From a virus, in the IMG/VR virus record IMGVR_UViG_3300004463_000253, positions 1-22,036 of that record: a stretch of DNA of 22,036 bases; one strand, given 5' to 3'. Shown here piece by piece: positions 2,264 to 20,318 of this stretch. The notes beneath the pieces are model-generated. The model saw nothing but the letters and a program-made list of their open reading frames with translations, was not told the DNA's origin and searched no databases. Position 1 is the first letter of the stretch, and each line of letters starts with the position of its first letter. Position numbers and translations under genes: made by a program.

Positions 2264-3169
2264 ATGTTTTACGATGATATCAATTTCCCGACTGATATTA
2301 GTTTTAACAGTCCAGGCGGCCCAGCGTTTTTAACGGCTATCGCCAAAGTTCCTTCGGGTCATCATCAGGCAGATATTCGGCGCGACACACCACTTTGCCA
2401 ATGGGATGTTGGTTACGGCGCCCGCACCATCGGTAAAATTTACGATCTTTATAAATTGTTCATGGTCGTGCGCGGCCAAGGCCATATGTTTCTGTTCAAA
2501 TATTGGCTCGACTACACCAGCCAGGACGGCGCGCAAGACCCGACGGGCGTGACCGAGCTTGACCAAGTGATAGCCACCGCGACCGCGGGGCAAACTCAAT
2601 TCCAGTTGATTAAGACGTACAGCGTCGGCTCGGCCTCTCTGGTGAAAACAATCCACAAGCCCAAGGCGGGCACGCTCAAGGTCGCCGTCGACGGCACGCC
2701 GGAATTATCGGGCTGGACGATGGATGCGGCAACCGGAATCATTACCCGATCATCGGGCTTGACCGGCGGCGAAGTGGTTACTGCCGGTTATGAGTATTAC
2801 CATCCCGTCCGTTTTTCGTCGGATGATTTCGATCCTTCGTTTATCGCTTGGCAGGCTGGCGAAGCATCGGTCCAAGTCGAGGAGGTGAGGATCAGTGCAT
2901 CAACCCCGCAGGCCGCTGGCTTTGGCACGTTCATGTCCGAAGTGCCGGCGGGCGTGCGCGACGGCGTCAACGTAACTTTTACTCTGTCGCAAGACCCAGA
3001 CCCGGACTCGATTGTGCTGTTTTGCTTTGGCGGCTTGGCAATCGAGAAAGTCGCGTCGAGTCCTGGTCAGTTGGAATACACGCTCTCGGGAACTGGCAAC
3101 CGGACTATCACGATGGGCCTGGGGCCAACGACCGGATATCCGTTCCGGGCGCATTACGTTACCGCGTAG
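2264..3169 (+). CDS. DUF2460 / TIGR02217 family distal tail protein (GTA g12-like)
   Basis: The N-terminus 'MFYDDINFPTDISFNSPGGP' followed by 'CQWDVGYG', 'L..LYKLFMVVRGQGHMFLFKYW' and 'YYHPVRFSSDDFD' is diagnostic of the TIGR02217/DUF2460 family. In Rhodobacter GTA the homologue (g12) forms the distal tail ring between tube and hub. The usual length is about 210 residues; this one is 301 because an extra domain of about 85 residues (217-301) follows the normal end near 'EEVRI'. That extra domain carries 'DGVNVTFTL' and resembles the small protein encoded next. The start overlaps nothing and lies one base after the tape measure stop, with an AAGAGA-like ribosome site. Family assignment is strong; the role is taken from GTA homologues. 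Confidence 0.9.
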   Translation: MFYDDINFPTDISFNSPGGPAFLTAIAKVPSGHHQADIRRDTPLCQWDVGYGARTIGKIYDLYKLFMVVRGQGHMFLFKYWLDYTSQDGAQDPTGVTELDQVIATATAGQTQFQLIKTYSVGSASLVKTIHKPKAGTLKVAVDGTPELSGWTMDAATGIITRSSGLTGGEVVTAGYEYYHPVRFSSDDFDPSFIAWQAGEASVQVEEVRISASTPQAAGFGTFMSEVPAGVRDGVNVTFTLSQDPDPDSIVLFCFGGLAIEKVASSPGQLEYTLSGTGNRTITMGLGPTTGYPFRAHYVTA

Positions 3170-3179
3170 AGCAGAGAAG

Positions 3180-3419
3180 ATGCCGTGGAAAAAAGAACAG
3201 TTGAGCGGAACTCTGGACGGTATCAACAAGGATTTCACCGTAACTGAGACGCCGCTGGTGGAGAGCCTGATGATTTTCTTCCCAGCCAATTATTGCGAAT
3301 CGGCGGTCATCGGCCAGCCGCAAGAGAGGCAATACCGAATCAGCGGCACGACGATAACTTTCGCAGTGGCCCCAAGCGGACAACGCCCATGGGCGCGTTA
3401 TTTCTACTATGAGGCGTAA
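3180..3419 (+). CDS. Small phage protein, probable copy of the DUF2460 C-terminal extension
   Basis: A 79-residue protein starting at ATG 3180, just after an AGAGAAG stretch; the next gene starts directly after its stop (TAAATG). It has 'GTLDGINKDFTV..TPL.ESLMIFF', later 'QYRISGTTITFAV..SGQ.PWARYFYYEA'. This lines up with the last 80 or so residues of the upstream DUF2460 protein, which has 'GVRDGVNVTFTL..DPDPDSIVLF', then 'LEYTLSGTGNRTITM' and 'PFRAHYVTA'. Both look like small all-beta domains of the kind used as baseplate or fibre attachment modules. I infer a tandem duplication of that domain; function is not known. It could bridge the distal ring to the appendage proteins encoded next. 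Confidence 0.7.
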   Translation: MPWKKEQLSGTLDGINKDFTVTETPLVESLMIFFPANYCESAVIGQPQERQYRISGTTITFAVAPSGQRPWARYFYYEA

Positions 3420-5342
3420 ATGAAAAAACTCTTATTCTCACTCTTGACGCTACTCATCGCTCACAGCGCCGCGGCCCAACAGTACATAGACGACCGCATC
3501 ATTTCCCCAGCGATAACGCGTGACGCCGAGATAATCCCGACAGGCGAGACCAACGCAATTTGCATTTCCAACACCGGCACGACGACGCCGGCTATCACAC
3601 TCTGCTCGACGCTCGATCTCACTAGCAAGACTGTTCTTTTCAAGTTGCCCGAATACACGGTGGCAACTCTGCCGGCATCTCATCCGCTCGTAATCGTCAT
3701 AGATGGTAACAGCTCGACGGATTGCAGCGTCGGCAAAGCCGGGACGCGCGTTTTATGCCACTGGAATGGCTCAGCCTACGCATCCCTTGGCGGCGGCGGC
3801 GGTGGATCTCCAGGCGGAGCGGACACTCAGGTTCAATTCAATGACGGTGGCGCCGCGTTCGGTGGTGATGCCGGAATGGTGTTCAACAAGACAACGAACG
3901 TACTGACAGTTTCCGGCGATATTCTCATCGGCGCTCAAAGCGTCTGTCAAGAGAACGGCACCAACTGCCCAACGGCGGGAGCGGAAAGCGATCCGGTAGT
4001 CGGCGCAATCAACGGGATCGTCAAGGCCAATGGCGCGGGAACCATCAGCGCGGCCAGCGCGGGGACTGATTATGTCATACCGGCCGGCAATGTCGCGACG
4101 GCCTCGGCTCTAGCGGCTAACGGGGCCAATTGCAATGCGGGAGCCGGCGCGGCTGGTACGGATACCGCTGGGGCCGCGGAGAACTGTGTCGATTTTATGG
4201 AAGAGCCAGGCGGCAACGGTATCGTTGCGCGCACGGCGGCCAACACGTCGGCCAACAGGACGATCACCGGCACTGGTACTAATATCACCGTCACAAACGG
4301 CAACGGCGTTTCCGGTAATCCTACCCTCGATGTCGGCACCAATGTTGTGAAGCTCGACACGCCGGCAACATGGATACCGCCACTTGTGACCGTCGCCACT
4401 CTCCCGGCTACGCCATCGGACGGCCAAGAAGCTACGGTGACGGACGGCGCTACGGCTGGCGATTGTGAAACCGGCCTTGGCTCCACTCGCGTGCGCTGCG
4501 TTTATAATTCTACGGCTGTGGCATGGGAACCGGCCACGGCCTCGGCGGCAACACCAACGCTCGAAGCCGTAATGACGGCGGGCAACACAACCACCAAATG
4601 CACCGAGGCAGACCCTTGCCAGTTCGGCAATGGGACCGTCTACATCAACGTCTATGTGTCAGACGCTAACCAGATGGTCATCGAGCCTAGCGTTGCGGCT
4701 GACCGCTACTTCACTTGCATGACCAACCAAGTGTGCGGGTTTTACGATACCGAAGGGGCGGCGGCAATACTGACCATCGACCCCGACGCAGCCAGCCAGC
4801 TAGGCAAGTACACTTTCGGGACCGCCTACAAGCCGACAAAGACCGTGGACTTTCCTGCGGCGGCACTCACCACGGATACCGCACAATGCGCGTCACCGGC
4901 ATTGGCGACCATCAACAGCGGTGCTCCACGCTATACCATTATTTGCGCTGACAACGATGCCAGCAGTATCTACGGCGAAGTCGTTATGCCGGATGCTTGG
5001 GACGGAGGGACAGTTACCTTTACTCACCGTTACGTCCAGACGGCGGCAGACACTGGGGTGCTAAATGGGGATATTTCAACGGCATGTCGTTTAGCGACAT
5101 CAACTATAAATGCAACCTGGGGGTCCGAGGTTGCAATTGATGATGCCGCTGTTACAGGTTCAAACGCCATAGATATGACAACAAGCGGGGCCGTGACAGC
5201 GAATGGTACATGCACAGCGGGTGTGCCACGACTACTCCAGTTCCGTTACCAACTCGATGCCGCTGGCACAACCACTGCCGTTGCGACTTTACATCATCTA
5301 GGATTCACGATGCGCTATTCCGTGACTTCACTCTCAGATTGA
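3420..5342 (+). CDS. Putative secreted tail-appendage protein with Sec signal peptide and paired cysteines
   Basis: 640 residues. Residues 1-19 form a classic Sec signal peptide (two Lys, Leu/Phe-rich core, small-residue end 'HSAAA' before QQ). A Gly-rich linker near residue 125 leads into 'GGADTQVQFNDGG..FGGDAG' and 'NKTTNVLTVSGD', a segment I know from phage fibre proteins. Two segments repeat the pattern 'VATLPA...DG....DC..G...TRV.C.W/YN' (about 80-120 and 325-365). I count 18 cysteines, mostly as neighbouring pairs, consistent with disulfides formed outside the cytoplasm. The gene starts on ATG directly after the preceding stop with GAGG upstream. It sits inside the tail operon, so an adsorption fibre or a surface-exposed accessory protein is the best guess. 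No enzymatic motif seen. Confidence 0.72.
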   Translation: MKKLLFSLLTLLIAHSAAAQQYIDDRIISPAITRDAEIIPTGETNAICISNTGTTTPAITLCSTLDLTSKTVLFKLPEYTVATLPASHPLVIVIDGNSSTDCSVGKAGTRVLCHWNGSAYASLGGGGGGSPGGADTQVQFNDGGAAFGGDAGMVFNKTTNVLTVSGDILIGAQSVCQENGTNCPTAGAESDPVVGAINGIVKANGAGTISAASAGTDYVIPAGNVATASALAANGANCNAGAGAAGTDTAGAAENCVDFMEEPGGNGIVARTAANTSANRTITGTGTNITVTNGNGVSGNPTLDVGTNVVKLDTPATWIPPLVTVATLPATPSDGQEATVTDGATAGDCETGLGSTRVRCVYNSTAVAWEPATASAATPTLEAVMTAGNTTTKCTEADPCQFGNGTVYINVYVSDANQMVIEPSVAADRYFTCMTNQVCGFYDTEGAAAILTIDPDAASQLGKYTFGTAYKPTKTVDFPAAALTTDTAQCASPALATINSGAPRYTIICADNDASSIYGEVVMPDAWDGGTVTFTHRYVQTAADTGVLNGDISTACRLATSTINATWGSEVAIDDAAVTGSNAIDMTTSGAVTANGTCTAGVPRLLQFRYQLDAAGTTTAVATLHHLGFTMRYSVTSLSD

Positions 5343-5934
5343 AGGCATCATGCACAGACCACTTATAAGCATTCAATCTTGCAGACAGAACCTTCGGGGA
5401 CATTCCAAGTTTCGCCGCCCACTGGCTGAGTGTCATAGTCTCGTTTTGATATGTAATGCGTCGATTGCGGCGGGTATTATTTTGCTGCTCCAGGCGAGTT
5501 CCCCATTTACAATTAGCTTTGCAGTAGGATTTGTCATTATCAATTCTCTCTATGGAATGCGCCGGAGATGGCATTGGTCCCATGTCTCTAATGAAAGCCG
5601 CGAACTCTCGCCATTCTTCACTGACTGTAATACCTCTAGCTCCATAGTATTTATAGTCAGCGGAAAGTTTATTGAAGCAGCGTTGACGCATTCGTTTCCA
5701 CACATGATATTCCGGTGTTTTTCCGCTACGTCTGGAATTGCCATGTTTAAGCCTTTTGCAACCGCAATTGGTGCTTCGTCCATCGCGGAGGTTTTGTGTG
5801 GGAATATCCCTTATGGTTCCGCAGGTGCAAAGGCAAGTCCAATAGACCGTTCGCTTGGATTTATCGCTGCGCTTCAGAACGGTCCATTCACCAAAAACTT
5901 TATCAACCAAATTGTATTGGATAATTCCACTCAT
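5305..5934 (-). CDS. HNH-like free-standing homing endonuclease, copy A
   Basis: 209 residues, start chosen at ATG 5934 because family similarity begins there ('NLVDKVFGEWTVLKR'); the longer upstream frame is unlike the family. Order: N-terminal zinc-ribbon-like part with Cys34, 36, 38, 57 and 59; 'EYHVWKRMRQRCFN'; 'YYGARGITVSEEW' (96-108); 'RDMGPMPSPAHSIERIDNDKSYCKANCKWGTRLEQQNN' region (116-153), which resembles the HNH fold core of phage mobile endonucleases; then a C-terminal 'MTLSQWAAKLGMSP' DNA-binding-like segment. Such proteins nick or cut DNA and spread their own gene. It is antisense to the tail operon, visibly AT-richer (about 35% GC at 5881-5940), and overlaps the last 38 bases of the 640-residue gene. 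The family is recognised by eye; cleavage activity is inferred. Confidence 0.82.
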   Translation of the reverse strand: MSGIIQYNLVDKVFGEWTVLKRSDKSKRTVYWTCLCTCGTIRDIPTQNLRDGRSTNCGCKRLKHGNSRRSGKTPEYHVWKRMRQRCFNKLSADYKYYGARGITVSEEWREFAAFIRDMGPMPSPAHSIERIDNDKSYCKANCKWGTRLEQQNNTRRNRRITYQNETMTLSQWAAKLGMSPKVLSARLNAYKWSVHDAFNLRVKSRNSAS

Positions 5935-5983
5935 GGGTTTATTTCTAACACATGCTATCAGGAATGTCCAGCTTGAGCGACTA

Positions 5984-6967
5984 ATGAAAACCATACTTGC
6001 CGCACTTCTGTCGCTTTTACTTGCTACTCCCGTCCATGCCTTCCGCTTTGAGGTGGGCATGTTCAGCGGCAACGGTGCCGACAACCGCAATATATCCACC
6101 GTTGCATCGTTTGCTATCTCCGCCATGCTGATAAAGTGCAACGGCGCAACATATGCGCCAATGAAAACGTCTTCGATAGCTGGGGATGGCGCCGACGATT
6201 TAGGCGGTGGTGGGGGCATTGCCACCAATAAGATTCAATCTCTTGGCACTGGCACCTTTCAAGTTGGATCGAGCAGTACAACGAATGTTAGCGGCACGGA
6301 CAACTGCTTTTACGTTGCCTGGGGCGCCGACGCCAACAACGATCTGGCGGTGGGAACCTATGTCGGCGACGGAACAAACGACAGGAATATAGTTATAAGT
6401 CCAGCGTTTCAGCCCGGCGCGGTTATCATATTAGGGGAGATGGACGACTCGAATGTATGGCGTCTAAGCGCAATGGCTGGAGATGCGTCTTTGGATTTTG
6501 CTCTAGGCGGCGCAGGCACTAACGAAATCCAGGCATTCAACGCAAATGGTTTTCAAATCGGCACCGATATTCAGGTAAACGACGGCACAGGCGGCACCGT
6601 TGACTACTATCCGCTGTCCGTCAAAGATGTTGCCAATTACGCAACGTCGGGGACTTATACCGCTACTGGATCACCGTCCGACGGCTTGGAGATAACGGTC
6701 GGCTTTCAGCCCGATATGGTAATCGTCAAGAGCGATACGGCTGACGGCGTTGCTATTATTCGCACCTCCGCCATGACCGGCGATTTCGCCTGTCCGATCA
6801 CCAACGTCGCCTGCGGTGCAAACTTCATTCAGAGTTTCACGGCAACGGGCTTTACCATTGGCACCAGCGCCAGCGTACAAAGCGCCAGCGTCAAATACTG
6901 GTGGTGGGCGATAAGGACTCCGGTGTATTCAACAGCACGGCCAATTTCACCGATTATGTTTCAGTGA
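5984..6967 (+). CDS. Putative secreted appendage protein with three tandem ~100-residue repeats
   Basis: 327 residues from ATG 5984, chosen because a Sec signal peptide begins there (positive Lys2, Leu-rich core, 'TPVHA' cleavage end at about residue 19); the longer frame from 5855 lies inside the antisense endonuclease. The mature part has three repeats, each starting like 'VG(M/T)(F/Y).G.G...R.I', followed by 'F.P..VII', 'RLSAM.GD' and 'GF.IGT..' and ending in a 'Y..W/S.' strand (about residues 25-125, 126-222, 223-320). This repeat type occurs in phage receptor-binding or decoration proteins. Four cysteines in two pairs (about 54/109 and two close together near 277/284). The ribosome site is weak. 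Function: likely virion or cell-surface decoration; no catalytic motif. Confidence 0.68.
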   Translation: MKTILAALLSLLLATPVHAFRFEVGMFSGNGADNRNISTVASFAISAMLIKCNGATYAPMKTSSIAGDGADDLGGGGGIATNKIQSLGTGTFQVGSSSTTNVSGTDNCFYVAWGADANNDLAVGTYVGDGTNDRNIVISPAFQPGAVIILGEMDDSNVWRLSAMAGDASLDFALGGAGTNEIQAFNANGFQIGTDIQVNDGTGGTVDYYPLSVKDVANYATSGTYTATGSPSDGLEITVGFQPDMVIVKSDTADGVAIIRTSAMTGDFACPITNVACGANFIQSFTATGFTIGTSASVQSASVKYWWWAIRTPVYSTARPISPIMFQ

Positions 6968-6974
6968 GGTAAAG

Positions 6975-9074
6975 ATGAAAAGACTCTTTTTGGTTTTAGC
7001 TCTGCTTTTGTTCTCAACCCAGGCTCACGCTACACGCTATTGGGTGGCAAAGACCGGCAGCGACTCAAATGCCTGCGCTGCCATTGACGGCGCCGCCGAT
7101 CCTGGCGTGTATAAACTGACCATTGCCAGCGGTTTAACCTGTCTCGCCGCAAGCGATACCTTGACCGTCAAGTCGGGAACCTACGTCGAGAGTTTTACCA
7201 ATCCACTGCCATCGGGCACTTCGTCCTCGACACCGACTACACTCGAAGGACTGAGCGGCGATACCGTTACTCTACGACCTACGACTGGCAGCAATATCAT
7301 CCTTCTCAATTCAGCCCGGACCAATTTAACTTTCCGCAATCTGAAAATTGATGCACAGGCGCTTGGTTTGGCCGGAGAAAAGACCGGCTTCCGTATCTCT
7401 GAGACTGGCACCTATTCAAATTTGATACTTGAGGACCTCGAAGTTAAAAACATGCACGGCCCCGGCATCGTGCTATCCACTACCACCACCGCCTGCACTC
7501 TACGGCGCATACATATACATGACAGCACCGGGGATGATACCACCAGCGGCACTGGCATCTATTGGCGGGGTACCTTTTGCACGGGTGAGGATCTGTTGAT
7601 CCACGATATCCCGATCAATGGCATAAGCATCTATTCATCCACCACTGGCGCGACGGATAATGTCATCAGGAACAGCCGCATTTACAATACCGGCACGGGG
7701 GCGTCACCGCCGCAGGAAACCGCTGGCGGGATCAATATCTATCGTTCACGCAACACGGTTTACAACAACATCATCGGTCCGAACACGGACAAGGGTATCC
7801 GCGTCGAGGGCACGGCAAACACTAGCAAAGTCTACAACAACACGATTTACGGCAGCGGGCTTCAGGGAATAAACTGCGCCAGCGGATTAACAGGGCTTGC
7901 CATCGTAAACAACATTTCACTGGGCAACACCGGCAGTAATATCTCGGCATTATGCACCGGCACGACTACCAACCTTACAACAGGGACGGTTGCCGATGTA
8001 TTCATAGATGCCGCAGGCGGCAATTTCAGCCTGAAGGAGTCCAGTGCGGCTATCGACACGGGCACGGTTATCAGTGGCTTTAGCGCGGGGCGATACGTCG
8101 GGAGTCTACCGGATATAGGGGCGCTTGAGTCGTGTATCCGCAACAAAGCCGCGGTCGAGAACGACGAGCCGACACATTATCACATCGCCTATGACTGCCC
8201 TATCCAATCGTCACGCAATAACTTAACTCTGCAAACGCCGACCGCCGGTAATTGGGTGATAGCGGTTGCCGGGGTGAACAAGACTCTCGGCAATGGCGGG
8301 ATAGTCAGCGCGACCATCAATGGGCAGTCTGCCGTTGAAGTGGTCTTGGCTACAGCCGTCACCAACGGGCAAAGCCTGACCGACGCCATGACGCGCAGCG
8401 CGGCGCCGACACTTACCGACTCCGTTTGTATCGGCGACCCCAACACCACTTGCTACAACGCGGTCGTAAGAACGCACGCGGCTTCAAGCGGCACCAACAA
8501 CGTGGGGGCTGCGCCTTCGCATGTCGTTGTCCAGTCACGCTTCCGCTTTCACAAACTGCGCGGCGCCGAGGATGCGGCGGTTGTCCAATGCGCTACCTGC
8601 ACCGAGAACGTGCCGATCACCCTACCGCCAGGCGCGGCATTCCGCCTGCGCGTCAAGTTTCGCAGTGACGACAACGTGGGCGCATTGTACGTTTTGCGCT
8701 ATGCGATAGACACCGGGGGCGGCTTCGGCGCTTATACGCTTACACCGGACGCGATGGGCGCCGATAACATCAGTTGGTACGGCATCACATCAGACACCGA
8801 CATTCCGGCAGCCGGCACACCGACCACCGAACTGCTTACCAGCGACGAAGCCAGCAATACCGCTTGCGCCGTGGTGCGCACTTCCAGCGACTACCCGACG
8901 ATCATTCTGAACAACCAGGAAACGGAATGCGAATACATCTTGAAGATAAGCACCAGCGCAGCCGTTGGCACGAAGTATCGTTTTCAGGTATGGGGTAGCG
9001 GTGGCACGCCGCTCGATACCTACATTAACACCCCCGAGCTTACCGTCGGCTCCTACACCATGATGGAGTCGTGA
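6975..9074 (+). CDS. Putative secreted right-handed beta-helix (pectate-lyase-like) appendage protein
   Basis: 699 residues, ATG 6975 with GAGGT nine bases upstream. Residues 1-19 are a Sec signal peptide ending 'TQAHA' before TRYW. The mature start 'RYWVAKTGSDSNAC' and 'SDTLTVKSGTYVE' are typical of DUF1565 / pectate-lyase-like beta-helix proteins. Parallel-helix rungs follow ('NLTFRNLKIDA', 'NLILEDLEVKN', 'CTLRRIHIHDS', 'NVIRNSRIYNTG', 'NTVYNNIIG', 'SKVYNNTIYGSGLQGI', 'LAIVNNISLGNT') to about residue 375. The C-terminal 300 residues form a separate beta-rich region of unknown type. I count 14 cysteines, mostly in near pairs. Beta-helices of this kind are common in phage tailspikes that bind or cut surface polysaccharide, but no active site can be named. 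Last gene before a 120-base gap. Confidence 0.72.
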   Translation: MKRLFLVLALLLFSTQAHATRYWVAKTGSDSNACAAIDGAADPGVYKLTIASGLTCLAASDTLTVKSGTYVESFTNPLPSGTSSSTPTTLEGLSGDTVTLRPTTGSNIILLNSARTNLTFRNLKIDAQALGLAGEKTGFRISETGTYSNLILEDLEVKNMHGPGIVLSTTTTACTLRRIHIHDSTGDDTTSGTGIYWRGTFCTGEDLLIHDIPINGISIYSSTTGATDNVIRNSRIYNTGTGASPPQETAGGINIYRSRNTVYNNIIGPNTDKGIRVEGTANTSKVYNNTIYGSGLQGINCASGLTGLAIVNNISLGNTGSNISALCTGTTTNLTTGTVADVFIDAAGGNFSLKESSAAIDTGTVISGFSAGRYVGSLPDIGALESCIRNKAAVENDEPTHYHIAYDCPIQSSRNNLTLQTPTAGNWVIAVAGVNKTLGNGGIVSATINGQSAVEVVLATAVTNGQSLTDAMTRSAAPTLTDSVCIGDPNTTCYNAVVRTHAASSGTNNVGAAPSHVVVQSRFRFHKLRGAEDAAVVQCATCTENVPITLPPGAAFRLRVKFRSDDNVGALYVLRYAIDTGGGFGAYTLTPDAMGADNISWYGITSDTDIPAAGTPTTELLTSDEASNTACAVVRTSSDYPTIILNNQETECEYILKISTSAAVGTKYRFQVWGSGGTPLDTYINTPELTVGSYTMMES

Positions 9075-9194
9075 CCCGAATGCGTAGCCGCTCTGTTAGA
9101 GCGGTTTGACAAAGCACTCAAGCTGATATGCGCCAGCCTTGTGACGACGACAGCCAACAGAGCGGCTTGCGCAAAGGTGATAGGACCATAGGAA
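9075..9194 (+). promoter_or_regulatory. Intergenic gap with a strong hairpin and a competing inverted repeat
   Basis: This is the longest gap in the tail operon. CCGCTCT at 9088-9094, loop GTT, AGAGCGG at 9098-9104 makes a perfect 7-bp stem, extendable by G-T and A-T pairs; only three T follow, so it is a poor intrinsic terminator. GCCGCTCTGTT (9087-9097) is also the exact inverse complement of AACAGAGCGGC (9156-9166), so the first arm could pair with either partner. It could attenuate transcription or protect a processed mRNA end between the appendage cassette and the hub genes. No promoter is obvious. Confidence 0.4.
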
Positions 9195-10754
9195 ATGAAA
9201 ACGATTCCCGCGGGTCTTCTCGCGCACTATCAACAGCAGGTGCAAACAACTGCGTTTTGCACGATCCTATCGCTCGCCGCGCGTCAGCCTCGGGTGATCA
9301 ACATTACCAACTCAGATCCCGGCGTCGTCACGACGCTTTGGCAACATCGACTGACAACCGGCGACGTGGTCAAGTTCATCGGTATCGAGGGCATGACCGA
9401 TATCAATTTCGTTGGTAACGTCAACGAGCTGTACTTTCTCGTGACCGTGCTCTCGCCGACCGAGTTTGAGATCAACGTCGACACGACCAATCTTAGTCCC
9501 TACGCCAAGGGCTCGAATTACGGCCAGGCCAGGCGCTGTCTCGGATTTACCTCATTCGAGCGCGACCTCGTATGGAATAACATCATCCTGCACGCCAAAA
9601 CTGGCTCGGTGGAAACCGCCGCGACGATTGACTCGGAATTCAAGACGCCGAGCCGCGAGGTGCGCGCGCTGCTCGACTCCGATCAGATAGTCGCCAAAGA
9701 CATAGAAGAGGGGCTATACAGTGGCGCCGAATACGAACACTTCGAGTTGAATTACCAAAACATCAGCCAAGGACGAAACGTTTTGCTGTATGGCCGGCTC
9801 GGCGATATTACCTGGGGCGATCAAGTGTTCAACGCCGAGGGTCTTGGCTTGATCTCTCTATTGCAACAGGATGTCGGCCCGAAGATTTCCGTGACCTGCC
9901 GCGCCGAGCTCGGCACCCGAATCCAAGACACCTGGAACGAGCGCTTTGGTTGCAAGGTACGGCTCAACCCTTACGAGTGGACACCTTCTACCGCCTACAC
10001 CGCGGTGCAAGCGGCAGACGCCGGACTTGGTTCGGTAGTCAAGCCGTCAGTTTACAATGGCTTTCGATACGCGGCCCTGACCAACGGCAATTCGGCGCTG
10101 ATCGAACCGTCATGGCCGACGACCATCGGCGCTACCGTTAGCGATGGCGGGATGATATGGGAATGCCGCGAGGCGCTGACAAAAGAGGGGTTTGTAACCG
10201 CCGTTGTCGATCGCCGGCAGTTCAGCGATTCCAGCCGGCTCGAACCGAGCGGCTGGTTCATGCACGGCCTGCTTACGTTTCTCGATGGACCGAACGCCGG
10301 TTTTTCCTCCGAGGTCAAAAGCCACAAGCGTGCCGAGTATCCAATCATCTCGATCGATGTCAACGGTCCGCATTTTTTCATTACCGGCGATCATACGGGT
10401 AACTTTACCGCGGGCGATGTCTTTACGGTATTTGGTTCCACCGCCAATGACGGCAACTATACGGTGGTCGCCGAGATTTACCAGTCCGGCCCGAATAACA
10501 CGAGGATCAGCGTCGCCGAGACTATCGCCAGCGATGTAGCTTCGGGCGTCATCGAGTGGCGGCCGGCGTCGTTCGTGCTACGCGATGCGGCGTTTAGCGA
10601 TATCAGCGTCGGCCAAAAATATCTGGTAGAGGTCGGCTGTGATAAGCGCGTCGAGACCTGCATCGACAAGTTCAACAACGTTTACAACTTTCGCGGCGAG
10701 CCGTACATCCCAGGCATTCATCAACAACTAAACTTCCCGGATCAACCGGCATGA
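9195..10754 (+). CDS. DUF2163 / BR0599-type baseplate hub protein (GTA g13-like) with inserted domains
   Basis: 519 residues; ATG 9195 behind AGGA-type sequence. The N-terminus 'MKTIPAGLLAHYQQQVQTTA' and later 'FTSFERDLVW', 'YEHFELNYQN', 'GRLGDITWGDQVFNAE' and 'ISVTCRAELGT' follow the DUF2163 family, whose GTA member g13 is the tail hub. The C-terminus 'GCDKRVETCIDKFNNVYNFRGEP.IPG' is the BR0599 signature, which includes its paired cysteines. Three segments look inserted: residues about 34-95 ('ITNSDPGVVTTL.HRLTTGDVVKF.GIEGMTDIN') like the FCCH-type fold seen in phage proteins; about 258-325 ('W.PSTAY..VQ', 'SALIEPSWPTTIGATVSDGGMIWEC'), a known phage decoration motif; and about 395-455 ('F.ITGDHTGNFTAGDVFTVFGST'). 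Usual family length is nearer 290, so the extra mass is these insertions. The next gene overlaps by ATGA. Confidence 0.85.
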   Translation: MKTIPAGLLAHYQQQVQTTAFCTILSLAARQPRVINITNSDPGVVTTLWQHRLTTGDVVKFIGIEGMTDINFVGNVNELYFLVTVLSPTEFEINVDTTNLSPYAKGSNYGQARRCLGFTSFERDLVWNNIILHAKTGSVETAATIDSEFKTPSREVRALLDSDQIVAKDIEEGLYSGAEYEHFELNYQNISQGRNVLLYGRLGDITWGDQVFNAEGLGLISLLQQDVGPKISVTCRAELGTRIQDTWNERFGCKVRLNPYEWTPSTAYTAVQAADAGLGSVVKPSVYNGFRYAALTNGNSALIEPSWPTTIGATVSDGGMIWECREALTKEGFVTAVVDRRQFSDSSRLEPSGWFMHGLLTFLDGPNAGFSSEVKSHKRAEYPIISIDVNGPHFFITGDHTGNFTAGDVFTVFGSTANDGNYTVVAEIYQSGPNNTRISVAETIASDVASGVIEWRPASFVLRDAAFSDISVGQKYLVEVGCDKRVETCIDKFNNVYNFRGEPYIPGIHQQLNFPDQPA

Positions 10755-11083
10755 CCATGAAACAATGCGAGGCCAAAATAACGGTTATCCAAAAAGGCGT
10801 GCTGGCGCCGTTCTACGCGCGTTGCATCGGCGCCGAGGGACACACGGGGATGCACTATTGGGAGCAAGAGCCGTTCAGCCTGGTCGCGCACCGCTTGCAC
10901 GCCGAGCCCTTATGGCTGCATGGCGCCGCGCGCATTGGCTGGGATGATCCCGAGATCTACGGCGCCGAGGCGAAGGCGTACATCTTGGATGGCCTTACCG
11001 TCAGCGAGAACGGCAACGAGCGCGCGCCAGAACTAACCGTGCAACCCTACGAGGTCCAGTCGTGGTCGAACCCAAGGCGATAA
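10751..11083 (+). CDS. Small phage protein of unknown function between hub and NlpC/P60 genes
   Basis: 110 residues, starting on ATG that overlaps the previous stop and overlapping the start of the next gene by 22 bases, so translational coupling is likely. I do not recognise the family. Near the N-terminus Cys6, Cys26, His31 and His35 are spaced as 'C(19)C(4)H(3)H', which could bind a metal, followed by 'YWEQEPFSLVAHRL'. The rest is acidic with no membrane segment. The position, between the DUF2163 hub and the cell-wall peptidase, suggests a virion or assembly role, but nothing in the sequence proves it. Confidence 0.65.
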   Translation: MTMKQCEAKITVIQKGVLAPFYARCIGAEGHTGMHYWEQEPFSLVAHRLHAEPLWLHGAARIGWDDPEIYGAEAKAYILDGLTVSENGNERAPELTVQPYEVQSWSNPRR

Positions 11084-13677
11084 TCGACGCGGCTAGGACT
11101 TGGCTCGGCACGCCGTTCCGCCACCAAGGCAGGGCCAAGGGGCAATGGGTGGACTGCATCGGTCTGGTGATCGGCGTGGCGAAGGAAACGAACTTGGTTG
11201 TCAAAGATTTTGATTATTGCGGTTACGGTCAACTGCCGGTGCCGACGGCGATGGAAAAAGCGCTCGATGAAAACATGATCCGCGTTGCGCCTGGCGCCGA
11301 ACGGCCCGGCGACGTGCCATGGATGTCGGACCCGATCTACGGCGGCCAGCCGCGCCATTTAGGTATTCTCACCGACTGCGGCACGATCATCCACGCTCAC
11401 AGCCGCGTCGGCAATGCCGCGCGCAAGGCGGCGGGGCGAGTGGTCGAGCAACGCATGGATGACAATCTCAAGCGCCGCGTGCGCCGTTATTACCGATTCC
11501 GGGCGCTTGCGATATTCATCGGCGCGCTATTGGGCGCTCTGATGCTGCCCGAGCTCGTCCAAGCCGGCGCGATGATTGTCCGCTCGGGCTTCACCATGGC
11601 CGGGTCATATTTTTTTGGCCCTGTCGGCGGTGTTGTCGGTGGGCTACTCGGCGGATTTCTCGGCAACCTGATGTTTCCCGAAGAGGGCAAATTGATTGGC
11701 TCGCAGTTGACCGACTTGATGGTTACGTCGAGCGCTTACGGCGAGGACATCGCCGACAGCGAGGGCACGTTGGCGCTGCCGGGATACTTGATACAATCGA
11801 GTGAGCTCAAACCGATCAAGCACGACGTTTCCGGCAAGGGAGCGTCGGCCAGCCCAGCCGGTTATTACTTCAGCTATTCCGCCGACTCGCTCTGGTTGTT
11901 TCGCCGTCGATCGGCCGCGGGCATCCTGCGCGTCTGGATGCAGGGGAAGCTTAGGCGCAATCTTTCGCCCGACGCCACGCTCGATGAAGTCATCGCGACA
12001 CAATCTAAGATCAAAGGCGGCCGGCTGGTGTTTTACATGGGCGCCGAGACTCAATTGCCTGACTCGACGATGGAGGCGCTTCATGGCGTCGGCCGCGTAC
12101 CCGCTTATCGCGGCCTGGTGACCCTGGCGGCGCTCGACCTGGAGTTGGCCGACTACGCCAACACGGTGCCGCAGTGTGTCGCCGAGGTCTATGACAATGG
12201 AAATTTTTACTATCGCAATTTCGGCCCGTTTATAGATCCTGATGTCGGGACGTCGTGGATATGGAAACAGACCTGGAATTATATCGACGACAACCACGAG
12301 GTCACGTCTTTAATCATTGACACCAACTGGGGCGCGATGGCGTATGCGCCTTATTCCGATCCGCGGGCATATTACTGGAGACGCTTCACGCCGAGCGGCG
12401 CCTTCCCGGAGTTGAAATTTGAATCATCTATTTTTTCAAGCTTCATCATTCACGACAACGGGGCCGGTTGGTCTGACGTCAACATGACTCTGGTTCATGC
12501 GGGCGCTGGTTATTTCATGATTTTCTACGATACGAATTTCGAGGTTGCTCTACAGCCGTATCCGGCGCAGTCCCTGGTCGATAGCGTGTCGAGTTGGGTT
12601 TATAAAGCCGGGCGGCTCTTAATTTGGATGAATAGCGGGTCGGGCACGATATCACACACCTTTGCCGAGTTCGATTCCGCTGGTCAATTCATTCGCTACT
12701 ACGATGGGCCGACGGACATGCTCTTGATCCGAGAATCGGATTTCTACGTTTATGGCCTCGCCTCGCCCGGTATCGGCAGCTTGTCGGAGGCGCCAAACTC
12801 CAAGCTCTACAAGATGGAGAAATACAGCTTGCAGATAGTCGAGATTTGGGATTTGGGCGTGCAGAAAATAGCCGCCTTCGACGTTGTCTCTGACGATGAG
12901 ATGTATTTCATGCAGACCGGCTTCGGCTTCGGTACGGTGGCGATCTTCGAGCTTAAAAACAAGCAAGCGGTGCAGATCGGCACCGTCGGCAACGTCTTTG
13001 GCGTAAACTTCAGGCAAGGCCAACTGATCTACAAGGACGGGATTCTTTACTACGGTCAAATCAACGGCGCCTATTGGGCGGTGACTCCCGCTGGTGTCGG
13101 CGATTGCGTGCCGCTGTCGCAAATAGTCGGTGACGCCTGCCGGATCGCCGGCATCGAGGAAACCCGCTTCGACGTTAGCGAGTTGACTGATTGCGTGTAC
13201 GGCTACGGTCGGGACGGCGCCATGTCGATGGTCAGCTGGTTATCACCGCTCCAGCCACATTACTTTTTCGATCCGGTCGAAAGTGGTGGTCTGCTCAAGT
13301 TTCGCAAGCGCGGCAAGCCGGTGGCGTTTACCATCCCGCTCGAAGACCTGTCCGCCTATGAGCCCGGCCAGGAGGTGCCCGATCGCCTGGAGCGCAGCCA
13401 GATCCATGAGCGCGCGCTGCCGACGACGGTGCGCGTGCACTACATCCAGCGCGACAAGGAATATGAGCGCGGCATGCAGCATGAGGAGCGCATCTTGACC
13501 GACTTCCGCCATGACATGGACGTGCGGCTAGCGGAATCAATGAGCGATAACGAGGCGCGCAACATGGCGGCGCGGCTGTTGCCGGTGCTGCACTTCGAGC
13601 GCAATGAATTAACGATCAAGTTGACGCGGAAATACGTCCGCATGGAACCGGGCGACCCGTTTGAGATCACACTATGA
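11062..13677 (+). CDS. NlpC/P60 cell-wall peptidase fused to the first part of the tail-tip 'megatron' protein
   Basis: 871 residues from GTG 11062, with GAGG nine bases upstream. Residues 1-150 are an NlpC/P60 peptidase: 'GTPFRHQGRAKGQWVDCIGLV' places the catalytic Cys at 32; His99 in 'PRHLGIL' and His111 complete the likely site. Residues 150-375 match the N-terminus of GTA g15-like megatrons: hydrophobic Gly-rich stretch, 'LTDLMVTSSAYGEDI', 'FYMGAETQLPDSTMEALHGV', 'VPAYRGLVTL'. Residues about 378-680 are an insert of repeated beta strands, perhaps a propeller. Residues 683-871 match the Phage-tail_3 region ('ESMSDNEARNMAARLLP', ending 'YVRMEPGDPFEITL'). In GTAs these are two genes (g14, g15). 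The megatron stops early here; its remaining parts appear at 16066 and 17433. Role: cell-wall opening and tail tip. Confidence 0.82.
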   Translation: MVEPKAIIDAARTWLGTPFRHQGRAKGQWVDCIGLVIGVAKETNLVVKDFDYCGYGQLPVPTAMEKALDENMIRVAPGAERPGDVPWMSDPIYGGQPRHLGILTDCGTIIHAHSRVGNAARKAAGRVVEQRMDDNLKRRVRRYYRFRALAIFIGALLGALMLPELVQAGAMIVRSGFTMAGSYFFGPVGGVVGGLLGGFLGNLMFPEEGKLIGSQLTDLMVTSSAYGEDIADSEGTLALPGYLIQSSELKPIKHDVSGKGASASPAGYYFSYSADSLWLFRRRSAAGILRVWMQGKLRRNLSPDATLDEVIATQSKIKGGRLVFYMGAETQLPDSTMEALHGVGRVPAYRGLVTLAALDLELADYANTVPQCVAEVYDNGNFYYRNFGPFIDPDVGTSWIWKQTWNYIDDNHEVTSLIIDTNWGAMAYAPYSDPRAYYWRRFTPSGAFPELKFESSIFSSFIIHDNGAGWSDVNMTLVHAGAGYFMIFYDTNFEVALQPYPAQSLVDSVSSWVYKAGRLLIWMNSGSGTISHTFAEFDSAGQFIRYYDGPTDMLLIRESDFYVYGLASPGIGSLSEAPNSKLYKMEKYSLQIVEIWDLGVQKIAAFDVVSDDEMYFMQTGFGFGTVAIFELKNKQAVQIGTVGNVFGVNFRQGQLIYKDGILYYGQINGAYWAVTPAGVGDCVPLSQIVGDACRIAGIEETRFDVSELTDCVYGYGRDGAMSMVSWLSPLQPHYFFDPVESGGLLKFRKRGKPVAFTIPLEDLSAYEPGQEVPDRLERSQIHERALPTTVRVHYIQRDKEYERGMQHEERILTDFRHDMDVRLAESMSDNEARNMAARLLPVLHFERNELTIKLTRKYVRMEPGDPFEITL

Positions 13678-14060
13678 GCACAACCACCAATTTGAAACTT
13701 CCCGAGATAGCTGTCGGCCAGTCGCAAAAAGAGACCACGCACAACGCCGCGCTGACTATCCTCGACAAGGTTCTGGGAACCAAGCTCGACATTGCGGTAA
13801 CCGCGGCCGACGTGACACTTACCGATTCACAGCACGACGGCGCGGTGTATTTCAAATTTACCGATACCATGACGGCGCCGCGCGCAGTGATCTTCCAGGG
13901 GCGCGGCAAACTCGCCATGGTCGAACACGCGGCAGCGGGGAGTCATAACATCACGCTCAAATCCGGCAGCGGCGCCGGTGCAACCGTGACCCTTGCGCCT
14001 GGCGATATCAAAATGATCTACGTCGACGGCGCCAACAACGCCGTCATTAAACCGACATGA
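13674..14060 (+). CDS. Small tail-fibre-associated protein with DUF2793-like N-terminus
   Basis: 128 residues, ATG overlapping the previous stop (ATGA). The first 35 residues, 'LKLPEIAVGQSQKETTHNAALTILD', resemble the DUF2793 start (LPYI-AxQAQK-xxTHNEAL-xxLD) found in phage tail proteins. The rest is a beta-rich domain with 'GAVYFKFTDTMTAPRAVIFQGRGK' and a C-terminal 'GDIKMIYVDGANNAVI', common in fibre head domains. It is the first of five genes that separate the two halves of the megatron. Possibly a cap or attachment protein at the tail tip; no catalytic residues are evident. Confidence 0.68.
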   Translation: MSTTTNLKLPEIAVGQSQKETTHNAALTILDKVLGTKLDIAVTAADVTLTDSQHDGAVYFKFTDTMTAPRAVIFQGRGKLAMVEHAAAGSHNITLKSGSGAGATVTLAPGDIKMIYVDGANNAVIKPT

Positions 14061-14068
14061 GGTAACAA

Positions 14069-15079
14069 ATGATTATCGATTGGGCGGAATCATACGGCTA
14101 TAGCACAACCCTAGCGCAGATTTTTGATTCAGTTTCGCAGTTCGGCGGGACAGTGACCACGGTCGAAAGCGGGCAGAGCCCGTCGGGGGGGAGCGTGCTG
14201 CAGGTGGCTTATACCTCTGGAGGGCAGTTTTTTCTTAAAAGCATGACCGCGCGATCGACGAAATTCGAGGCGTTTAGGTTCCGTGTCAGTACGAGTTTCA
14301 CAGGGGAAGTTACGATCTTTCGTTGGTTCGAATCAGGGACGATCCATTGCGATTTGCGAGTGACCGACGCTGGAGCGCTAAAAGTTACGCGCAACGGCAC
14401 CACGCTTGCGACCTCAGCCGCTGGAATCATGCCGCTCAACAATACTTGGAAGCACATCGAGACCAAGCTGGTGATCCACGACAGCACCGGCACGGTTGAC
14501 GTTTGGGTCGATAGCGTCAGCGTTATCAGTGCGAGCGGCCTCGATACCCGCAACGGCGGCACTGGGGTTATCGATCAAACGGGCCCGTGTATCAACGTGA
14601 CGGCGGACTCTGTTATGACGTTTCAATTCTGCGATAACGTTTCCGCCGACTCACAGATCAATCAGGCGCGCGTCGACTATTTTCCGCCCACCGGCGCCGG
14701 CACCTCGGCGCAGTTCACGCCGACGGCGGGCTCTAACTTTCAGACTGTCGACGAGACCGGATCGCCGAACACATCGGACTATAACGCCAGTTCGACGGTG
14801 GGGCATATCGACTCGTTTGCGATGGGTGACGTACCGGCGACGGCGGTCATTATCGCGCTCGGGCAAGTCGCCTTGGTGAACAAACAGGACTCGGGCAGCG
14901 CCACGGTCAACTTCGTCAATCGTCAGAGCACGACGAATTATAACGGCACGCCGTTCAGTCCGCCGTTCGGTTCGAATCAATACTTTCGAGAGTGGTTTCC
15001 GCTCAACCCCGACACGGCGGCGCAATGGACGCCGGCTCAAGTCAACGCCAACGAAATCGGCTACAAACGCGCAGCTTAG
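14069..15079 (+). CDS. Putative tail-tip decoration protein with concanavalin/LamG-like fold
   Basis: 336 residues, ATG 14069 with GAGGT upstream. Residues 10-195 read as a jelly-roll lectin-type domain: 'EAFRFRVSTSFTGEVTIFRWFESG', 'DLRVTDAGALKVTRNGTTLATS', then 'NTWKHIETKLVIHDSTGTVDVWVDSV', a pattern of many phage LamG-like proteins. The C-terminal part ('GDVPATAVIIALGQVALVNKQDSGSA' onward, about 245-336) is a second beta-rich domain. I expect binding to a surface glycan or a structural role in a side appendage. The family assignment rests on pattern and not on a named motif. Confidence 0.68.
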   Translation: MIIDWAESYGYSTTLAQIFDSVSQFGGTVTTVESGQSPSGGSVLQVAYTSGGQFFLKSMTARSTKFEAFRFRVSTSFTGEVTIFRWFESGTIHCDLRVTDAGALKVTRNGTTLATSAAGIMPLNNTWKHIETKLVIHDSTGTVDVWVDSVSVISASGLDTRNGGTGVIDQTGPCINVTADSVMTFQFCDNVSADSQINQARVDYFPPTGAGTSAQFTPTAGSNFQTVDETGSPNTSDYNASSTVGHIDSFAMGDVPATAVIIALGQVALVNKQDSGSATVNFVNRQSTTNYNGTPFSPPFGSNQYFREWFPLNPDTAAQWTPAQVNANEIGYKRAA

Positions 15080-16065: not shown

Positions 16066-17436
16066 ATGGCGACGGAAACCCGGATACTTCAGCACGGCGC
16101 CCAGGTCATCAGTGAGGAAACGGACGTCGAGACTCGCGTGCTTCAGGAAGGCGCGCAGGTCATCCGGCAAGAAACGAGTTTGGCGACCCGCGTGCTCCAG
16201 CACGGTGCCCAGGTAGTGCGCGAAGAAACCAGCCTGGCGACTCGCGTTCTGCAATTCGGCGCGCAGCTGGTTTACATTCCGTCAACCTTAGTTGCGACGG
16301 CACTCGTCGGCACCCGCTTAATGGGCGTTGCCGGGGTCTTTGTCGCGTTGACGGCGCCGGCTCTGGTCGGAACCCGGGCAATCGGTTCGGCGACATTCGG
16401 CATTGCCGTCCAATCGACTTCGCTCGTAGGCAACCGCGGCATCGGCGACGGCTACGTCATCGATTCCAACATGCTCGTCGGGCCGTCGCTGGTCGGCACC
16501 AGGGCGATCGGCAATCCTTCTGTCCAGATCCAAGTCACCGCCGCGGCGCTAGTGCGCGCGCGCGCGATCGGCGCCAACGCGCTGGTTATCGACGAAAGCA
16601 CCCTGGTGGCGGTCTCGCTGGTCGGTACGCGCCGCGTCGGGGTCGTCACAATCGGGGCGGTGGGCGCGCAGCGCACGCTGCGCTTTCGCGCCACCTCGGT
16701 CGAGTATGGCGCGCCGGGCATTGTCATCGTCAAGGCGGTTTCCGAAGATCCTGGTTTATACACGGGGTATGTCGCCACCGGCGGCTCGCCTTTGCCTATG
16801 TTCCGCGGACCATCACTCGCCGTGCCAGGATCGACGCGCTTGGTCGTTTTCGACTCTGTACTGTTGCGCGACGACGACGCTGGCATCGGCTATTACATCG
16901 CCGTCACCGGCTACAATCCCGGCTGGCAGGGCTGCATCGTCAGCAAGTCGGCCGACGACGGGCAAACTTACGAGGATATCGCCACCATCGACCAACAAAG
17001 TTGCATCGCTTACGCTCTGGCGGCGCCCGGTTCGCCACCCGATGTCAATACTTGGGACGATACCAACACGATCACTGTCAAGCTGGTGCGGCCGGATATT
17101 TTCATGCTCGCCAGCGACACCGAGGCCAACGTGCTCAACGGCACCAACGCCGCGGCGATGATAAAGCTCAACGGCGATGTCGAAATAGTGCAATGGACGA
17201 CGGCAACATCCCTCGGCTCTGGTAAATATCAATTAACCCATCTACTGCGCGGCCGGCGTGGTAGCGAGTTCGCCGTTGACGGCCATGAAATAGGCGAGCA
17301 GTTCGTTGCGCTCGACGCGGCGGCGCTACGGCGTATCACCGCGACTTCGTTGGAGATCGGCCAGCCGCAGATATTCAAGGCAACGACCTTGGGCACTTTG
17401 ATCGGTAATGCCGTGGAGGTTCCGTTTACGTTATGA
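16066..17436 (+). CDS. Megatron-type tail-tip protein, C-proximal part, with two families of tandem repeats
   Basis: 456 residues. Residues 5-70 hold four 18-residue units (T-R-V-L-Q-x-G-A-Q-V-x-x-E-E-T-S-L-x). Residues 80-192 hold six units of about 20 residues starting LVGTRxxG. From about 210 the protein matches the C-proximal part of GTA g15-like megatrons: 'MFRGPSLAVPGSTRLVVFDSVLL', a 'GWQGC...KSADDGQTYEDIA' strand, 'NTWDDTNTITVKLV', 'NVLNGTNAAAMIKLNGDVEIVQW', and the hallmark 'YQLTHLLRGRRGSEFAVDGHEIGEQFVALD' region near 385-415. In GTAs this lies on the same chain as the Phage-tail_3 region that here ends at 13677. No signal peptide. The start directly follows the previous stop without a clear ribosome site, so coupling is likely; the next gene overlaps by ATGA. 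Confidence 0.82.
   Translation: MATETRILQHGAQVISEETDVETRVLQEGAQVIRQETSLATRVLQHGAQVVREETSLATRVLQFGAQLVYIPSTLVATALVGTRLMGVAGVFVALTAPALVGTRAIGSATFGIAVQSTSLVGNRGIGDGYVIDSNMLVGPSLVGTRAIGNPSVQIQVTAAALVRARAIGANALVIDESTLVAVSLVGTRRVGVVTIGAVGAQRTLRFRATSVEYGAPGIVIVKAVSEDPGLYTGYVATGGSPLPMFRGPSLAVPGSTRLVVFDSVLLRDDDAGIGYYIAVTGYNPGWQGCIVSKSADDGQTYEDIATIDQQSCIAYALAAPGSPPDVNTWDDTNTITVKLVRPDIFMLASDTEANVLNGTNAAAMIKLNGDVEIVQWTTATSLGSGKYQLTHLLRGRRGSEFAVDGHEIGEQFVALDAAALRRITATSLEIGQPQIFKATTLGTLIGNAVEVPFTL
16078..16275 (+). repeat. Tandem 54-bp / 18-residue coding repeat, 3.7 units
   Basis: Units start at residues 5, 23, 41 and 59 of the 456-residue protein, with an exact 18-codon period; the last is cut short at 'LQFGAQLVY'. 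The core T-R-V/I-L-Q-x-G-A-Q-V is kept in all, and DNA similarity is visible ('GGCGCGCAGGTCATC' against 'GGCGCCCAGGTCATC'). Such units are found in several phage tail proteins; variation in copy number is possible. Confidence 0.75.
16303..16641 (+). repeat. Six coding repeats of about 20 residues with LVGTRxxG core
   Basis: The cores begin at residues 80, 100, 120, 142, 162 and 185 (spacing 20, 20, 22, 20, 23). The first two-residue hydrophobic pair, Gly and Arg are kept in most; unit 5 reads LVRARAIG. The spacing varies, so the array is old compared with the 18-residue array before it. Probably a stack of beta strands forming a shaft. Confidence 0.7.
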
Positions 17437-19321: not shown

Positions 19322-19693
19322 ATGGCTGAACCAAAAGAAGAAGTAATCAAAACAGTCGTCACCGATCGGGGCGCAGGCGAAGGCCCGAAGGACCGCTCGA
19401 TTCTCCACACGCCAGCGGGGCAGGCTAACGTCGAGATTGTCGCATTGAGCGTGTGGGCTCAGGTTGGGATTCGCGTCTTGAGGACGTTTCTTCAAGGGTG
19501 GGTAGGGATATTGATTGCGGGCGGAACGGGCGCAGCCGCTGCGGTTGGTGTCAACATGCCCGTCGGCGACTTTGGTGCGCTCCTGGTGCAATCCGCCTCG
19601 CTAGCGGTGGCTCCTGCGGTAATCTCAGCCTTACAGAATATTATCGAGTTGTTAGGGCGTGTCGATGTTAACAACCCTGGAATGCGCGCTTAG
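19322..19693 (+). CDS. Probable holin, 123 aa
   Basis: ATG 19322 with AAGGAG seven bases upstream. The N-terminal 45 residues are hydrophilic; two membrane segments follow (about 47-72, 'RVLRTFLQGWVGILIAGGTG', and 84-106, 'GALLVQSASLAVAPAVISAL'), then 'IIELLGRVDVNNPGMRA'. The Arg-x-Phe-Leu-Gln segment followed by an Ala/Gly-rich pass and an Asn-containing end resembles holins of the r1t-like type found beside endolysins. Its last 26 bases are overlapped by the antisense endonuclease gene; the C-terminus looks normal for the family, so I think insertion did not cut it. Confidence 0.66.
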   Translation: MAEPKEEVIKTVVTDRGAGEGPKDRSILHTPAGQANVEIVALSVWAQVGIRVLRTFLQGWVGILIAGGTGAAAAVGVNMPVGDFGALLVQSASLAVAPAVISALQNIIELLGRVDVNNPGMRA

Positions 19694-20318
19694 TATATCG
19701 CACCGGGCGAAAGACGGCATCCTCTGGGCTCCAACCGTCTCGCAGTCTTATTTGAATAAGGCCAGGTCTTACTTTTCTAAGCTCGGTCCATTCTGCGAGA
19801 GAGCGCGTTTTCCCGTTTACGGTAAGCATATGAGTATTTTGTCTATTACGCATTTGCTCTTTTCTCGTAGCCCATCGACAGTTCGATTTACGATAATTCC
19901 CGTTGTTATCAATACGTTCAATTGTATGTTCAGGAGGGCAATGTCCCATGTCATTCAGAAATGTTTCGAAACTATCGAGCCATTCCTTACACACAGTAAT
20001 TCCCCGAGCGCCGTAATTTTCGTACCGATTGTTGCTCGGGTTAAAGCATCTAGATTTCATACCAAGCCATGCGCGGTATTCATGAGTCGTGCCGCCTCTT
20101 GTATGCCCGTGTGTCGTAGCCCGTTTAACCCTGAGCTCTATACAGAGACAGCCGCAACTATGAGTGTTTCCAGATTTCAAACTTGTCCCGCTGACAATTC
20201 TTTCGCTTCCGCATTCACAACGACACAGCCATTGAGGGCGATTACGAGAATCATTAGAAACCCTATCAAGAACTTTCCAGCGGCCAAACTTACGATCAAT
20301 GAGATTTATGAATTCCAT
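19668..20318 (-). CDS. HNH-like free-standing homing endonuclease, copy B
   Basis: 216 residues, start set at ATG 20318 ('FINLIDRKFGRWKVLDR') where similarity to copy A begins. Same order as copy A: Cys32, 34, 36, 55 and 57 (spacing identical to copy A), 'EYRAWLGMKSRCFNPSNNRY', 'NYGARGITVCKEW' (101-113), 'NDMGHCPPEHTIERIDNNGN' region with 'NCRWATRKEQMRNR', then 'RSLAEWTELRKVRP' and 'IRLRDGWSPEDAVFRP'. Copy B keeps the canonical I-E-R-I-D-N-x-G-N-Y, while copy A has IDNDKSY. The two are clearly homologous but not recent duplicates. It is antisense to the lysis genes, AT-richer (about 40% GC at 19861-19920), and overlaps the end of the holin gene by 26 bases. Confidence 0.84.
   Translation of the reverse strand: MEFINLIDRKFGRWKVLDRVSNDSRNRPQWLCRCECGSERIVSGTSLKSGNTHSCGCLCIELRVKRATTHGHTRGGTTHEYRAWLGMKSRCFNPSNNRYENYGARGITVCKEWLDSFETFLNDMGHCPPEHTIERIDNNGNYRKSNCRWATRKEQMRNRQNTHMLTVNGKTRSLAEWTELRKVRPGLIQIRLRDGWSPEDAVFRPVRYTKRAFQGC

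Follow-up and report, generated by a model that had tools for sequence, protein, structure and literature searches.

A recurring late-gene cassette of predicted exported, cysteine-paired fibre-like and spike-like proteins in tailed phages

The receptor-binding protein pIII of filamentous phages is exported through the Sec pathway and disulfide bonded, and it joins the growing virion at the membrane, whereas tailed phages assemble in the cytoplasm. The membrane insertion of pIII has been described (PMC8310372). In phage lambda the exported protein Lom is encoded within the tail-fibre region (PMC12309495), and partial effects of dsbA in Klebsiella phages have been ascribed to host surface components (PMC13412088). 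Here we analyze a complete 22,036-base IMG/VR record (IMGVR_UViG_3300004463_000253), a linear phage fragment referred to as the window, whose tail region encodes three signal-bearing proteins of 640, 327 and 699 residues, named P1, P2 and P3. Our preferred explanation, held tentatively and at close to even confidence, is that they form a mobile late-gene cassette of exported receptor-binding appendages that dock on virions at lysis.

The proposed mode resembles that of pIII in Sec export, disulfides and receptor binding, although no homology is claimed. Like Lom and Bor-type proteins, P1–P3 carry signal peptides and are encoded by a tailed phage in or near its tail-fibre region; Lom, however, is a β-barrel expressed in lysogens, whereas P1–P3 are cysteine-rich spike and lectin modules, lack promoter signals of their own and also occur in T7-like phages. 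The spikes and fibres of podophages (P22, Sf6 and CBA120; T7-type) share a β-helix body and a β-sandwich like those of lectins or carbohydrate-binding modules (CBMs), and we found weak structural matches to the Sf6 and CBA120 spikes, but P1–P3 have a Sec signal instead of an N-terminal head- or tail-binding domain, and many cysteines. The helix of P3 aligns with that of the secreted enzyme Pel9A (1ru4), and P3 is itself predicted to be secreted; it differs in an extra C-terminal domain of about 300 residues and in the absence of the DDGFD and K of Pel9A. Finally, the collagen-like fibres of six compared loci (all compared loci, given L-numbers below, are metagenomic windows) end in a tip domain homologous to the C-terminus of P1, but have no signal, 0–2 cysteines, an N-terminus of their own and a G-X-Y shaft.

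Export signals and paired cysteines

P1 (3420..5342, + strand), P2 (5984..6967, +) and P3 (6975..9074, +) begin with predicted signal peptides encoded at 3420–3476, 5984–6040 and 6975–7031, respectively. The N-termini, MKKLLFSLLTLLIAHSAAA^QQ in P1, MKTILAALLSLLLATPVHA^FR in P2 and MKRLFLVLALLLFSTQAHA^TR in P3, show a basic n-region, a hydrophobic h-region and an A-X-A c-region by our own scorer. This simple n/h/c-region scorer gave 8.06, 7.51 and 8.64, respectively, while only 3 of 6,505 shuffled proteins reached 7.5 or more and 20 of 6,505 reached 6.3 or more. The first-pass annotation had described clean Sec signal peptides, and the translations, the cleavage sites (AAA, VHA and AHA) and the scorer agree with it. 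Sec-type N-termini are also present in the homologues of thirteen compared loci; where little positive charge precedes the hydrophobic stretch, the signal was assigned by eye. Export of P1, P2 and P3 by Sec and signal peptidase I is thus predicted with good support.

All cysteines of P1 (18), P2 (4) and P3 (14) fall in the mature parts, whereas the tape-measure open reading frame (ORF) has none and the other tail ORFs have 0–7; the earlier counts were exact. That all three are even, as the first-pass annotation stressed, is correct but weak evidence by itself. Across related loci an even number occurs in 52 of 65 signal-bearing proteins with at least three cysteines versus 161 of 340 others (uncorrected), but when a single protein stands for each homology cluster the figure is 12 of 22 signal-bearing proteins and not significant, and we dropped parity as an argument. 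The difference in cysteine density remains after clustering, at 1.28 versus 0.79 per 100 residues (P 0.0045; 1.86 in signal-bearing proteins versus 0.69 in others before clustering).

Pairwise loss of cysteines in the compared sequences is better evidence for disulfides than parity. In the tip of P1 (4782–5339, +), which behind a signal peptide has four conserved cysteines in the pairs 490/509 and 556/598, positions 556 and 598 both carry cysteine in 16 sequences and both lack it in 10, with no sequence retaining only one or only the other. Cysteines 490 and 509 are lost together in L110, and in L114 both members of the second pair are shifted by two residues. All-or-none pairs are likewise found in P3 (631/652, 539/542, 387/408 and others). 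In contrast, the signal-less tip homologues that end collagen-like fibres have 0–2 cysteines in total and none at 509, 556 or 598. Because export signals and paired cysteines coincide, P1–P3 are probably secreted and disulfide bonded, unlike tail parts that fold in the cytoplasm. The earlier proposal of export with disulfides is well supported by these sequence patterns, namely family-wide signals, cysteines gained and lost two at a time, and the contrast between signal-bearing and signal-less members of one domain family.

The inserted block and its recurrence in other phages

The closest tail relative of the window, L091, shares its tail DNA at 67–78% identity from position 1 to 2890, with one small gap, and again from 9196; in L091 both flanks abut within 10 bases. 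Because homology breaks at 2890 and resumes at 9196, a 6.3-kb block (2891–9195) is extra in the window. On its left is the gene of the distal-tail-type DUF2460 protein (2264..3169, +; 301 residues; Pfam PF09343, E 3.8e-47), residues 2–210 of which are 78% identical to L091 (BLASTP). The right border is the gene of a DUF2163-type hub (9195..10754, +; Phage_phiJL001_Gp84_N / Phage_BR0599), where L091 homology resumes. The insertion between these two genes suggested in the first-pass annotation is supported: they adjoin in L091 and, by annotation, in Desulfofustis phage LS06-2018-MD02. The interval of that annotation (3420–9074), however, starts inside the insert, which besides P1, P2, P3 and the sequence 3' of P3 comprises the final ~93 codons of the DUF2460 gene and a 79-residue ORF. 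Overlooked were a minus-strand HNH-type ORF (5305–5934) between P1 and P2 and a conserved in-frame extension of P3 (9075–9191), which begins where the interval ends. The DUF2460 extension (residues ~209–301; 2888–3169, +) is homologous to the 79-residue ORF (E 2e-10), a putative adaptor domain encoded directly 5' of P1 (3180..3419, +).

A DNA match of 73–77% to the podophages L003 and L005 is limited to 4370–5348, 5968–7102 and 8082–9197, that is, to the cassette. The module has moved between phages that are otherwise unmatched in DNA. The homing-endonuclease-like HNH ORF is absent from L003 and L005, in which P1 and P2 adjoin; it represents a further insert of ~620 bp in the window and leaves a duplicate P1 3' end upstream of P2, around 5968–5985.

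Searching with P1 and P3, and with the C-terminal domain of each, collected a cassette family with the same serial plan, in which signal peptides precede a P1 of 339–769 residues, a lectin- or fibre-type P2 of 224–344 residues and a β-helix P3 of 650–955 residues; the P3 homologues have 13–25 cysteines, and L097 and L117 are looser variants. The neighbours are portal, capsid-type and tail-tube genes in the T7-like phage L109, an SU10-type adaptor in L006, capsid genes in L110 and L112, and a terminase in L116. By sequence comparison, phages whose tails and capsids are unrelated share the P1–P2–P3 cassette, which they carry in late or structural gene clusters. The expectation that the same cassette would be found in other phages therefore held, signals included, but elsewhere it lies not between DUF2460 and DUF2163 genes and moves among unrelated late regions. 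The term "new exported phage system" is justified as a description of the recurring cassette.

L003, L118 and the L109 phage encode short proteins in which 100–300 residues are joined to a T7-type fibre N-terminal domain. Directly behind that protein of the L109 phage lies a small signal-bearing ORF of 153 residues (L132, 15603–16064, −). L147, an independent phage retrieved with the 79-residue ORF, has a related domain (34% identity) upstream of two signal-bearing genes: region 7830–15054 encodes an adaptor-like protein of 409 residues with this domain, then two large signal-bearing proteins, the second with immunoglobulin-like and chitobiase-C-type domains. The trend is repeated, with other proteins, in the fibre loci L050, L059, L066 and L007. 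In L050, fibre-like proteins (2498–3799 and 7463–11032) have lipoprotein-type (lipobox) signals, LSGC and MFGC, beside several genes with signal peptidase I-type signals. The L059 fibre had only short-piece matches in phage records, with no signal-bearing fibre genes in the two examined.

P1, P2 and P3 of the window, P1 and P2 of L116 and P3 of L109 had no tblastn match in 50,697 GenBank phage records. The P1 tip occurs in one contig of a metagenome-assembled genome (L097, titled Proteobacteria), and in 1 of 395 phylum genomes, which is the same one. A search of the open-access literature returned no description of such an exported cassette.

Folds and possible destination of the exported proteins

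P1 combines a fibre-like repeat region, with the fibre motif ADTQVQFNDGG, and the C-terminal tip. The tip model (predicted local distance difference test score, pLDDT, 86.8) is a β-sandwich. Its structural matches are weak and comprise CBMs, the ligand-binding domains of ephrin receptors, the Klebsiella K2-2 tailspike and, among viral models, collagen-like fibre proteins. The predicted P1 C-terminus is thus a lectin- or CBM-like β-sandwich. P2 matches the tail-fiber family phrog_24898 (E 4.8e-13) and falls just under the Pfam cut-off for DUF7483 (E 4.5e-06). P3 matches Pfam Beta_helix (E 7.5e-09), and its model (pLDDT 70) matches Pel9A in Foldseek (E 1.1e-07). The profile alignment with Pel9A (E 1.7e-20) spans residues ~21–386, nearly the whole mature enzyme, and is followed by the C-terminal domain (~8160–9071, +). 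Across the positions of DDGFD, the Ca-binding aspartate cluster, and of the catalytic lysine, which we take to be the catalytic residues of PL9, SDDGFDLF aligns to kggGiqly and GFKLG to Giily. Rather than a PL9 lyase, P3 is probably a relative that binds glycans or has some other activity.

Where would such proteins act? In the docking explanation, the cassette would supply three glycan-recognition bodies, a lectin-tipped fibre (P1), a fibre or lectin domain (P2) and a PL9-like β-helix (P3), in which a Sec signal peptide replaces the usual N-terminal virion anchor. The proteins would be made alongside the structural proteins, exported by Sec, cut by signal peptidase I and disulfide linked in the periplasm. 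At lysis they would meet the virions and, we infer, attach to adaptors. In the window these would be the C-terminal extension of the DUF2460 protein and its 79-residue homologue, in podophages the T7-type fibre N-terminal proteins. The product would be a set of disulfide-hardened receptor-binding appendages. The signals, the pairwise coevolution of cysteines, the mobility of the unit and its late-gene position are well supported from sequence. Sec export during late expression, periplasmic disulfides and release at lysis are what we infer from them. Docking itself is possible, as suggested by bodies of receptor-binding type (β-helix, lectin-like tip and fibre motif), the fibre-like repeats of P1 and the adaptor-like domains linked to the cassette.

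Several points weigh against docking. The presence of P1–P3 in virions is a prediction. Pfam and PHROGs identify no N-terminal virion-anchoring domain in P1 or P3, which have a signal peptide instead, and the helix of P3 begins right behind the signal, as in secreted lyases. Before lysis, virions and periplasmic proteins have no contact. The podophage fibre proteins of 418 and 446 residues could be complete short fibres, and the lipobox-type signals on two fibre-like genes of L050 point to the envelope. The signal-bearing and signal-less tips may moreover be just two clades, which would make their difference one contrast and not many independent events.

The same observations bear on the strongest alternative, which we regard as plausible with well under even confidence: that P1–P3 are exported and disulfide bonded but never enter the virion, their site of action being the envelope or, once the cell has lysed, the medium. 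There they would mask receptors carried by debris or by the infected cell, or bind and clear surface polysaccharide, so that progeny spread. The signal sits where a virion anchor would be, P3 is like a secreted PL9 enzyme right from the start of its mature part, fibre-like genes with a lipobox exist in L050, and the cassette lies beside tail, capsid or terminase genes, bound to no single tail part. However, the fibre-like repeats of P1 would be useful mainly when attached, adaptor-like domains accompany the cassette in the window and adjoin signal-bearing genes in L147, and the lack of PL9 catalytic residues in P3 makes a simple lyase action doubtful.

An unlikely alternative is that the P1–P3 genes are morons that bring about lysogenic conversion, comparable to lambda lom, with products displayed on the lysogen surface. 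Lom is a precedent for an exported protein encoded in a tail region (PMC12309495), and the cassette is absent from the close relative L091. A consensus scan against shuffles, however, showed no excess of promoter-like (6 versus 5.4 expected) or terminator-like (6 versus 7.7) signals, the start of P1 immediately follows the stop codon of the ORF before it, and T7-like podophages carry the cassette too, among their structural genes. The lysogen-surface action raised in the first-pass annotation is thus less likely, because no promoter is evident and the cassette is surrounded by late genes, in T7-like podophages as well.

Hydrophobic helices do occur in phage virions, and the N-termini might be membrane-active or trimerizing helices of ordinary cytoplasmic tail fibres, but we consider this very improbable: a divergent family shows the typical n-h-c layout with A-X-A sites throughout, and its paired cysteines are sensible only in an oxidizing compartment. 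Chance or an annotation artefact, conceivable since the signal calls rest on one simple scorer, can practically be disregarded in view of three consecutive signals, the 20 false positives among 6,505 shuffled proteins and conservation in at least 10 distinct phages.

The frame behind P3, surrounding genes and implications

Directly behind the TGA of P3, and in its frame, a conserved open frame of 33–47 codons is present in the window (9075–9191, +; 38 codons plus TAG), L003 (14726–14842), L005 (14660–14761) and L006 (14338–14481). No ATG, GTG or TTG start is found where conservation begins. Between the window and L003, differences are distributed 12:3:2 over third, first and second codon positions, and a DNA-pattern scan for the extension returned known carriers only. 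The region 3' of P3 folds (z −2.9), and a rho-independent terminator was considered; we rejected it since coding fits better with the third-position bias. Whole-genome recoding of TGA was also rejected, since P1 in the window and the extension of L005 end with TGA. The pattern suggests UGA stop-codon readthrough as the simplest reading of this candidate extension, with translation from a non-standard start as the alternative. The A1 protein of phage Qβ is an example of stop-codon readthrough. Speculatively, P3 with a tail of ~40 residues would be a minor docking or display variant.

The tail region runs in the order tape measure (ending at 2262), DUF2460 protein, 79-residue ORF, P1, HNH-type ORF, P2, P3 and DUF2163-type hub. 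Behind the hub follow a 110-residue ORF, an NlpC/P60 and Phage-tail_3 fusion, more tail genes, one of them for an Rcc01698-C-type protein (16066–17436), and a GH19-type endolysin. The fusion (11062–13677) is a single ORF of 871 residues, whereas L091 has two genes (149 and 735 residues). The HNH-type ORF between P1 and P2 has a counterpart at 19668–20300; both are on the minus strand, opposing the operon, and share 40% identity, and neither has a Pfam match at E 0.1. Scans with Rfam and PADLOC and for tRNAs returned nothing.

Tailed-phage morphogenesis is taught as cytoplasmic. The broader proposition, that some tailed phages finish particles outside the cytoplasm with Sec-exported spikes from a mobile cassette on unrelated tails, plus a spike extended by UGA readthrough, is possible, and we advance it with considerable reserve. 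A mobile, exported and cysteine-paired set of receptor-binding modules common to siphophages and podophages would mean either that some virions are completed after export and lysis, or that phages release secreted variants of the proteins with which they bind receptors. Either outcome, if true, would change how signal-bearing fibre-like genes in viral metagenomes are read, where β-helix genes risk being mislabelled as host-derived metabolic enzymes.

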